Shown one piece after another: positions 26,427-51,553 of a DNA stretch of 64,000 bases. This DNA comes from Halorientalis sp. LT38. Lineage in GTDB: Archaea > Halobacteriota > Halobacteria > Halobacteriales > Haloarculaceae. Within the stretch, counting starts at the first letter, position 1; every line of letters begins with the position of its first letter. A program made the position numbers and the translations under genes. The stretch lies in the NCBI RefSeq assembly GCF_037031225.1, contig NZ_JAYEZN010000001.1, positions 992,001-1,056,000 on the forward strand. The letters are read 5' to 3'. Below the pieces are notes generated by a model. That model worked only from the letters and a program-made list of their open reading frames with translations. It was not told the DNA's origin and ran no database searches.

Positions 26427-26560
26427 TTCACCGGAAGACGGTTCACCTCACCTCGTTCCGCTCGGTTCGGTGACTGCGACTTCCGAGCACCCACTCGTTC
26501 CCTGCGGTCACTCGCGGGAACACTCGGCGCGAGTGAAACGAGCGCCGAGGGAGTGTTTCC

Positions 26561-26676
26561 CCAAGTTTTTGCGATAGTGAGGGACCTCCGGTCCCTCATA
26601 CCATGCGAACGGGCGCTTCGCGCCCGTGAGCAGATGGGGGGTTCGCCAGCGGCGAACCCCCGACGTAAAAAGTGGG
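26561..26676 (+). repeat. structured intergenic repeat, copy 1 (~116 bp, three hairpins)
   Basis: Bounded by a T-tract (CCAAGTTTTT, 26561) and an A-tract (AAAAAGTGGG, 26667-26676), an imperfect terminal inversion. Three stems lie between: 26578-26598 (9 bp, loop TCC), 26609-26627 (8 bp, loop TTC) and 26637-26661 (11 bp, loop AGC). The linker TACCATGCGA between hairpins 1 and 2 and GAGCAGA after hairpin 2 are identical in the second copy at 49885-49999. Seven bases separate it from the thi4 stop, on the opposite strand. No coding function. Confidence 0.85.
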
Positions 26677-26682
26677 TGCCGG

Positions 26683-29600
<2,918 letters not shown>

Positions 29601-49846: not shown

Positions 49847-49883
49847 CTAGTCGTCCAGTTCCGCCCGCAGCAACTGGTTCACG
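49847..49883 (-). repeat. displaced copy of the gatB 3' end (VNQLLRAELDD-stop)
   Basis: On the minus strand the frame reads KVVVNQLLRAELDD then TAG. The true gatB ends VNQLLREALEE then TAG (50036-50071). The 13-nt core CAACTGGTTCACG occurs in both copies, 189 bases apart. The structured repeat (49885-49999) lies between. It has no gene body of its own. Confidence 0.85.
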
Positions 49884-49884
49884 A

Positions 49885-49999
49885 CCACCTTTTTCTCCTC
49901 GGGTCGCCGACGGCGACCCCTCTCTGCTCACGGGCCGCGGAGCGGCCCGTTCGCATGGTATGAGGGAGCGGAGCTCCCTCACTAGTCGAAAAACGTGGG
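49885..49999 (-). repeat. structured intergenic repeat, copy 2 (~115 bp, three hairpins)
   Basis: Inverse orientation to copy 1 (26561-26676). Stems: 49961-49981 (9 bp, TGAGGGAGC/GCTCCCTCA), 49930-49950 (9 bp, ACGGGCCGC/GCGGCCCGT) and 49901-49919 (8 bp, GGGTCGCC/GGCGACCC). Linkers identical to copy 1 are TACCATGCGA between the first two stems and GAGCAGA after the second. Ends are a T-tract and an A-tract (CCACCTTTTT at 49885, AAAAACGTGGG to 49999). Stem differences from copy 1 are paired, keeping the hairpins. It sits just 3' of gatB. Confidence 0.85.
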
Positions 50000-50035: not shown

Positions 50036-51553
50036 CTATTCCTCTAGCGCTTCCCGCAACAACTGGTTCACGTCGCCGGGGTCGGCGCTCCCGCCGGTCT
50101 TCTGCATCACCTGGCCGACGAGGAAGTTGATCGCGCCGTCGTCGCCGCCGTGGTAGTCCTCGACGGCGCCGGGGTTCTCCTCGATCGCTTCGGTGACCGC
50201 GTCGGCGACCTCGTCGCCGCTGGTCTTGCCCAGGTCCTCCGCCTCGACGACGGTATCGGGGTCTTTGCCGTCGTCGAGCATCGACCGGAGGACGGTCTCG
50301 CGGGCGTTCTTGGCCGTGATCTCGTCCTCGGCGACGAGTTCGACGAGACGCGTCACCTCGTCCAGGCGGTCGTCGATTTCCGTGATCTCCATGTCGCGGT
50401 AGTTGAGTTCGCCGAGCAGGTTGTCCGCGACCCAGGTCGCCGCGAGGTCGGGGTCGTACTCCCCGGCGAGGTCCTCGAAGAAGTCCGCGACCTGTTTGGT
50501 GCTGGTGAGCTTCGAGGCCGCCTCGTCGCTGAGGCCGTACTCGTCGGCGAAGCGCTCGCGGCGAGCGTCGGGCAGTTCCGGGATCGCGATCTGCTCCTTC
50601 CAGTCGGCCACCTGCAGCGGGGGCAGGTCGGCCTCCCGGAAGTAGCGGTAATCTTTCTCTTCTTCCTTCGAGCGCATCGAGACCGTGTTACCGTGGGTCT
50701 CGTTGAAGTGACGGGTCTCCTGCTCGACGGCGCGGCCGGACTCGACGAGTTTCTTCTGGCGCGAGCGCTCGAAGGAGAGGGCCTTCTCCGCGCCCTTGTG
50801 GCTGGAGATGTTCTTGACCTCCGTGCGGTTCGCGTCCGCAAGGACTGTATCGTCGATCTCGCCGTCGCCGTCGACCTCATCGGCGGGGACCAGCGAGAGG
50901 TTGGCGTCGATGCGCAGCGAGCCGTCGCGGCTGGGGTCGAAGACGCCCAGGTACTCGAGGACCTCCTCGAGTTTCTCGAGGAAGGAGCGGACCTCCGCGG
51001 GCTCGCGGAAGTCGGGTTCCGTGACGATCTCCATCAGCGGCGTGCCGGCGCGGTTGTAGTCGATCAGGGTGTAGTCGGCGCGCTCGATGGAGACAGTGCG
51101 GCTCTCCAGGCCCTCCGTGCCCTCTCGGACGTGCTTGATGCTGCCTGGGTCCTCTTCGAGGTGGGCCCGGCGGATGGCGACGGTGCGGCGCTGCCCGTCG
51201 ACAGAGAACTCCAGGTCGCCGTCCTGGCAGATCGGCGCGTCGTACTGGGTGATCTGGAAGTTCTTGGGCAGGTCGGGGTAGTAGTAGTTCTTCCGGTGGA
51301 AGGCGGTCTCCTCGGGGATTTCGGCGTCGATGGCCTTCCCGACTTTGACGGCGGCCTCGACGGCCCCCTCGTTGAGGACCGGCAGGGCGCCGGGGAGGCC
51401 GAGACAGACGGGGCAGGTGTGGGTGTTCGGCTCGTCGTCGCCGTCGGCCGTCGAACAGCCACAGAAGATCTTCGTCGCCGTCTCGAGCTGGACGTGCACC
51501 TCCAGCCCGATCACGGCGACGTGCTCCCCCGTTTCGGCAGCCTGTGCTGTCAT
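50036..51553 (-). CDS. gatB: Asp-tRNA(Asn)/Glu-tRNA(Gln) amidotransferase subunit B
   Basis: 505 residues. GatB holds the kinase-like site activating misacylated Asp-tRNA-Asn or Glu-tRNA-Gln for amidation. N-terminal GLEVHVQLETATKIFCGCST and THTCPVCLGLPGALPVLN carry the zinc-binding Cys. RKNYYYPDLPKNFQITQYDA, RAHLEEDPGS and DYNRAGTPLMEIVTEPDFR follow. The C-terminal ~130 residues form the helical YqeY-like tail domain (NYRDMEITEIDDRLDEVTRL). GatA and GatC are not in the window. The termination region has an extra copy downstream with the structured repeat in between. Confidence 0.94.
   Translation of the reverse strand: MTAQAAETGEHVAVIGLEVHVQLETATKIFCGCSTADGDDEPNTHTCPVCLGLPGALPVLNEGAVEAAVKVGKAIDAEIPEETAFHRKNYYYPDLPKNFQITQYDAPICQDGDLEFSVDGQRRTVAIRRAHLEEDPGSIKHVREGTEGLESRTVSIERADYTLIDYNRAGTPLMEIVTEPDFREPAEVRSFLEKLEEVLEYLGVFDPSRDGSLRIDANLSLVPADEVDGDGEIDDTVLADANRTEVKNISSHKGAEKALSFERSRQKKLVESGRAVEQETRHFNETHGNTVSMRSKEEEKDYRYFREADLPPLQVADWKEQIAIPELPDARRERFADEYGLSDEAASKLTSTKQVADFFEDLAGEYDPDLAATWVADNLLGELNYRDMEITEIDDRLDEVTRLVELVAEDEITAKNARETVLRSMLDDGKDPDTVVEAEDLGKTSGDEVADAVTEAIEENPGAVEDYHGGDDGAINFLVGQVMQKTGGSADPGDVNQLLREALEE

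Follow-up and report, generated by a model that had tools for sequence, protein, structure and literature searches.

Two intergenic stretches of about 115 bp in the window (the whole 64,000 nucleotides of Halorientalis sp. LT38 DNA analyzed here) resemble each other, one at 26561-26676 and the other, in reverse orientation, at 49885-49999, and they raise the question of what recurs. The original prediction saw either a non-autonomous mobile element (MITE/REP-like) or an RNA 3'-end module. We report that the locus probably holds a non-autonomous, ~60-bp twin-hairpin mobile element that inserted into a pre-existing bidirectional terminator and may have been moved in trans by a Y1-type transposase; its anatomy and its mobility are well supported.

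Direct reading found both copies at these positions, with paired stem changes and unchanged linkers between them and with opposing T- and A-tracts flanking both, as predicted. In copy 1, stem 1 (TGAGGGACC/GGTCCCTCA) is followed by the linker TACCATGCGA, stem 2 (ACGGGCGC/GCGCCCGT), GAGCAGA, and an 11-bp stem 3; copy 2, read on the minus strand, has stem 1 TGAGGGAGC/GCTCCCTCA, stem 2 ACGGGCCGC/GCGGCCCGT, linkers identical to those of copy 1, and a stem 3 of 8 bp. The predicted 115-bp boundaries had to be given up: the stretch is composite, and the repeat comprises only 26575-26634 (plus strand, TAG...GAGCAGA, 60 bp) and 49923-49984 (minus strand, 62 bp), following the plan TAG-hairpin 1-ACCATGCGA-hairpin 2-GAGCAGA (60 to 62 bp in the window). 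Boundaries of copy 1 were transferred from an exact 60-bp insertion in a tnpB gene (L087 versus L324) and from core-less thi4 terminators of relatives, and copy 2 was delimited in the same way. Direct reading, covariation, and folding all identify hairpin 1 of copy 1 (26578-26598, plus strand; 9-bp stem, 3-nt loop) and hairpin 2 (26609-26627, plus strand), the latter lengthened by TGC/GCA across a GA/GA internal loop (26605-26632). None of 200 dinucleotide shuffles folded as well as the core of either copy (z, -5.8 to -6.4), and both strands of the unit folded alike as DNA. The unit is too short to code, in line with the prediction.

Copy 1 lies at the 3' end of a Thi4-type thiazole synthase gene (26683-27528, minus strand, translated from 27528; named by eye from the sequence), the protein of which was searched for in 39 genomes and matched along most of its length in nearly every one. 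In five Halorientalis relatives (L220, L221, L223, L224, and L226), a T5-hairpin-A5 terminator stands right behind the thi4 stop codon, its hairpin is G-rich, and hairpins 1 and 2 are absent. The LT38 genome shares this terminator structure, but an extra ~60 bp separates its hairpin foot from its A-tract; it alone is filled, against the five empty relatives. The parts of this terminator-like structure around copy 1 are a left arm, CCCAAGTTTTTGC (26560-26572; counterpart in the unit-free L223 thi4 end, GCAAAAACTTGGGG), the 11-bp stem 3, GGGGGTTCGCC/GGCGAACCCCC (26637-26661; also present in the five core-less relatives), and a right arm, GACGTAAAAAGTGGG (26662-26676; read directly and seen in thi4 orthologues), which on the minus strand is the T-tract directly after the thi4 stop codon. 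Around copy 2, direct reading gives a terminator hairpin (stem 3, 8 bp) at 49901-49919 and a T-tract at 49989-49993 (minus strand) with its partner A-tract at 49890-49894. A strict scan of the window for additional terminators of this type found none.

A second gene repeats the pattern. The NADH dehydrogenase gene is filled in LT38 (L330), L284, and L048 and empty in L335, L339, L341, L342, L348, and L350, with the empty L339 and the filled L284 belonging to one genus; empty orthologous sites, named in the original prediction as support, were thus found at both gene ends. At thi4 and at NADH dehydrogenase, a T-tract follows the stop codon on each strand with a hairpin between, the sequence anatomy of an archaeal bidirectional terminator. 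Because stem 3 and the T/A-tracts are present without the unit at orthologous sites, they are host derived and lie outside the repeat as a putative bidirectional terminator; the idea that the T/A-tracts form a closing stem of the element was rejected on the same evidence. Filled and empty terminators alternate between genera and within one genus, so some sites are independent insertions, and this alternation also weakens the case that paired changes between orthologous sites prove selection at those sites.

Evidence of exact insertion came from tnpB genes, several of which hold the unit within their 3' end (overlapping that end in L087, L092, L118, L154, and others). When the flanks of the L087 copy (Natrialba chahannaoensis) were joined, they gave a contiguous match of 122/123 nt to an uninterrupted tnpB of Halorussus aquaticus, and L087 and L324 differ in alignment by exactly 60 bp behind CCCCA, where host bases are neither duplicated nor missing. 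The ends of the unit (TAGTGAGGG... and, reversed, TCTGCTCACGGG...) do not match. The unit enters as a precise block, lacks terminal inverted repeats, and neither duplicates its target nor removes host bases. In the flank before TCTGC, position -5 was C in 119/141 cases and position -2 a pyrimidine in 139/141, with -1 free; the orientation of insertion is constant, the unit following a C-rich target (loose consensus, CNNYN^TCTGC) on the strand opposite to that read in the original prediction. Two kinds of site recur: gene 3' ends with T-tract/hairpin/A-tract terminators, and the palindromic 3' ends of tnpB in IS200/IS605-type elements. Of the predicted MITE/REP-like element, mobility stands on the exact filled/empty tnpB pair and the empty orthologous sites. 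The MITE assignment does not, since a MITE shares terminal inverted repeats with a transposon and usually has a target duplication, and the unit has neither.

The unit is far from confined to two copies. BLAST found further copies in the same 3.58-Mb genome (E values down to 4e-22), a two-stem pattern matched there eight times (versus none for a reversed-pattern control), and a covariance model built from 66 cores gave 28 matches at E <= 0.01, the weakest of which were merely related hairpin pairs; the genome thus holds at least eight clear copies plus weaker ones. As these copies are only about 82 to 85% alike, recent transposition within this genome is not demonstrated. An exact core pattern matched at least 120 loci, nearly all of them haloarchaeal among the matches listed, and the covariance model found the unit in 47/58 relatives and, at E <= 1e-4, in 196/242 sampled Halobacteria genomes, and many copies were among what the original prediction had named as support. 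The copies within LT38, the folding of the core, and the paired changes over the cores (below) put the repeat far beyond chance, and the two copies are not chance palindrome clusters. Unit length across the family is 60 to 66 bp. The unit also occurs on a few plasmids; carriage by viruses was considered and set aside, as a search of viral contigs and phages found none. A literature search found no paper describing the sequence of the unit. Exact termini, a preferred target, and filled/empty pairs are now at hand for a very small unit that is nearly ubiquitous in Halobacteria. In the metagenome-assembled genome QS_8_65_32 (L039, L043, L054, L055, L062, L081, and L151), a near-constant AGCCGAGCG..CGGGGGCTT stretch follows the unit and CGAGAGAGC-type hairpin modules often precede it, which suggests that these flanking modules and the unit make up larger composite repeats.

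Paired stem changes had led the original prediction to propose selection on a folded RNA or single-stranded DNA and a statistical test of covariation. In the 66 cores, both members of a pair had changed in 111 cells; shuffles gave 22.5 +/- 4.1 such cells, and sliding the partners gave no more than 21. Since the search pattern itself dictated hairpin 2, this strong signal comes from hairpin 1 plus the last pair of hairpin 2. A further covarying pair, of T or C with A or G, joins the terminal base of the unit to the hairpin 1 foot (columns 5-30: TA, 53; CG, 12; other, 1).

Strong covariation could also be the mark of an RNA with a function at mRNA 3' ends (a terminator, a stabilizer, or a processed small RNA) that is selected for RNA structure and recurs by function and not by transposition. 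In keeping with this, most T/A-tract sites have the unit 35 to 68 nt away from the sense gene's stop codon, the unit is found in that context in sense 32 times versus 8 in antisense, and it occupies the same gene in different genera. Base pairing speaks differently: the unit stems held 5 G-T pairs versus 8 A-C mismatches among 1,122 cells, whereas the acceptor and T stems of 19 haloarchaeal tRNAs held 11 G-T in 228 (4.8%), a comparison limited to the G-T rate because the tRNA filter favors standard pairs. The deficit relative to tRNA holds for hairpin 1 alone (P = 4e-4). An RNA made from one strand should tolerate G-U, so a G-T pair as rare as A-C argues for maintenance at the DNA level over RNA selection; covariation is present, and the wobble intermediates expected of a structured RNA are no commoner than A-C. 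Rfam searches at the gathering score, covering the window and 15 related loci, matched only a tRNA. Of the two predicted targets of selection, the folded RNA is therefore disfavored and hairpin-forming DNA is the better fit, and the strand symmetry points to arms kept alike by hairpin-forming DNA or by hairpin-templated repair.

Orientation and position have an explanation of their own. Outside T/A-tract contexts strand bias is absent (41 versus 41), and the C-rich target, lying where the terminator hairpin has its 3' foot, accounts for the fixed order terminator hairpin-unit and hence for a sense-strand bias limited to T/A-tract contexts; we rejected sense-strand polarity as functional proof for this reason. 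The unit is, moreover, absent from most orthologous terminators and cleanly interrupts tnpB genes. We accordingly regard an RNA module as quite unlikely. The association with 3' ends foreseen in the original prediction is real, but it stems from the terminator that was entered and is not a property of the repeat, and once in a terminator, the unit probably does no more than extend the structure behind the T-tract in a way that is tolerated. Paired stem changes between repeats do not on their own make a case for a functional RNA.

Overlap with tnpB 3' ends (in L087, L092, L118, and L154, among others) initially led us to favor another reading, in which the unit is the omega RNA scaffold of IS1341-type TnpB surviving as solo remnants. 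Haloarchaeal omega RNAs are expressed from tnpB 3' ends (PMC12558985), which is where these copies lie. Thirty sampled TnpB loci, however, lacked a convincing copy, the tnpB copy is an insertion missing from a near-identical tnpB, and LT38 carries at least eight clear copies with TnpB not detected. The reading was dropped on the strength of the 30 loci and the exact empty tnpB, and we now hold it to be very improbable. The omega RNA (reRNA) of IS200/IS605 TnpB shares with the unit its place at the tnpB 3' end in several elements and differs in that the unit is an insertion there, absent from other TnpBs and present in a genome in which none was detected. The 3' ends of tnpB can accordingly hold foreign hairpins that are open to misreading as part of a guide RNA.

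Having set aside an RNA role, we return to the mobile twin-hairpin element and how it may move. IS200/IS605 Y1 enzymes rely on guide pairing with the cleavage site. Two subterminal hairpins, a target in one flank, the lack of duplication, and a terminal base paired to the hairpin 1 foot together resemble Y1 single-strand transposition of this family, the last feature recalling its guide-to-cleavage-site pairing. The unit would thus most likely travel as hairpin-bearing single-stranded DNA by means of an IS200/IS605-type Y1 (HUH) transposase acting in trans, with hairpins 1 and 2 as the putative right- and left-end recognition hairpins, respectively. Perfect Watson-Crick stems in both strands would follow if the DNA hairpin is the recognized substrate or if hairpin-templated repair equalizes the arms.

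Candidate movers were sought by profile. At the thresholds used, neither a Y1 transposase (PF01797) nor TnpB (PF07282) was detected in LT38, and the unit is therefore probably inert in this genome now; other Halorientalis genomes hold 1 to 8 Y1 and 8 to 39 TnpB. Copy number was only weakly related to Y1 or TnpB counts across all 58 genomes and not significantly so in complete ones (for Y1, taking genomes of 90% or higher completeness, rho = 0.18, P = 0.26), and ten genomes carry at least five unit copies yet no Y1. A search for an autonomous parent sharing the ends of the unit came up empty: the 30 TnpB loci lacked a convincing copy, and the Y1 loci tested gave weak scores only. In a further alternative, palindrome-driven copying, no transposase is involved, and the unit spreads when hairpin-rich sites recombine, and templates switch between them, at replication forks. 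Such copying is favored by the lack of any detected enzyme in the host, by stems that are perfectly palindromic with changes on both sides and almost no intermediates, by linkers common to modules with different hairpins, and by insertion that often adjoins another hairpin; the exact ends, fixed unit, and target preference are, by contrast, typical of an end-recognizing enzyme, and we judge palindrome-driven copying unlikely. Together with the defined ends and the preferred target, the filled/empty pairs make the movement of transposase-free repeats, described as enigmatic for small mobile repeats (PMC3119063), directly testable.

Among known elements, those nearest to the unit come from Haloquadratum, namely PATEs and SMR-A repeats. 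PATEs (palindrome-associated transposable elements) of Haloquadratum walsbyi are non-coding, without terminal inverted repeats or target duplication, and have near-end palindromes homologous to IS605-type transposon ends, with mention of a 4- to 5-bp target sequence at one end (PMC3119063). Our unit likewise lacks terminal inverted repeats and, as judged from L087 versus L324, target duplication, is too short to code, and has hairpins beginning 3 nt and 7 nt from its ends. It differs in size, consisting solely of two hairpins and a linker in 60 to 66 bp, whereas PATEs of stated length are much longer (489 bp; PMC10544981, with 52-bp terminal-only forms arising by deletion within a repeated palindrome). 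The right end of tnpB holds a similar GCGAACGG..CCGTGAGC hairpin, and no insertion sequence with matching ends was found among the TnpB and Y1 loci tested. SMR-A small mobile repeats of H. walsbyi are ~110 bp long with prominent terminal inverted repeats and an enigmatic mobilizer, and small mobile repeats of Haloquadratum attack the near-terminal palindromes of IS605-type elements (PMC3119063). Both SMR-A and our unit are very short, non-coding, and without target duplication, and the unit similarly inserts in the tnpB 3' palindromes of IS605-type elements; unlike SMR-A, it is 60 to 66 bp long, carries no inverted repeat at its termini, and frequently occupies the terminators of host genes. 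With REP/REPIN/BIME repeats (moved by RAYTs, which are Y1 transposases) it shares intergenic hairpin pairs, non-autonomy, and a presumed IS200/IS605-type mover. Its two hairpins are, in contrast, unlike and not inverted copies of each other; the constant GTAG or CGTC foot tag of REP/REPIN is absent, the end varying (TAG/TCG/CCG/CAG) in step with the hairpin foot; and no RAYT is linked to it, with no Y1 detected in LT38 and no clear correlation over complete relatives.

Other twin-hairpin families behave in the same way. In the filled tnpB (L087 versus L324), the zinc-ribbon part holds a second twin-hairpin insert, 51 bp long, in frame, and unrelated to the first, with the plan GTCAGAC-TAC-GTCTGAC-GGGCAGC-AAAATCGC-GT-GCGATTTT. 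A Y1-bearing element of a Halorientalis genome (L328 versus L327) has a 57-bp twin-hairpin insert with the linker TCGCACA within its end palindrome, and this linker family has two more members (L329 and L118), with stems wholly different between members. Sibling families of 51 and 57 bp thus also insert cleanly in IS200/IS605 genes and ends, in agreement with the targets described for the Haloquadratum small mobile repeats (PMC3119063). Tentatively, these may belong to a haloarchaeal class of 50- to 66-bp twin-hairpin mobile units (with four or more linker families observed) that spread by an undescribed mechanism, either an HUH enzyme acting in trans on two unlike hairpins or transposase-free, replication-linked hairpin copying, and that would fill terminators and TnpB guide-RNA ends across the class. 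If so, twin-hairpin units would rank with the shortest DNA segments for which exact block insertion has been shown. In LT38 itself, loci L305, L308, L309, and L311 represent a related family with a similar hairpin 1, the linker GGCAGC, a hairpin CGGCGC..GCGCCG, and the end GACGAAG or a variant.

The surroundings of copy 2 hold a further oddity. Upstream lies gatB (GatB-like amidotransferase subunit, named by eye from the sequence; 50036-51553, minus strand), and a second copy of the gatB 3' end (GTGAACCAGTTGCTGCGGG...TAG; 49847-49882, minus strand) was read directly on the far side, an arrangement repeated in L138; gatB-like 3' fragments occur in L254 and L265 as well. At least four genomes, including L138, L254, and L265, have a terminator-like block between the gatB 3' end (50036-50070) and the second gatB-like 3' end (49847-49882; GTGAACCAGTTGYTGCGGG...stop), and several Halorientalis relatives lack both block and second end. 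The arrangement looks like an integration or recombination scar at gatB.
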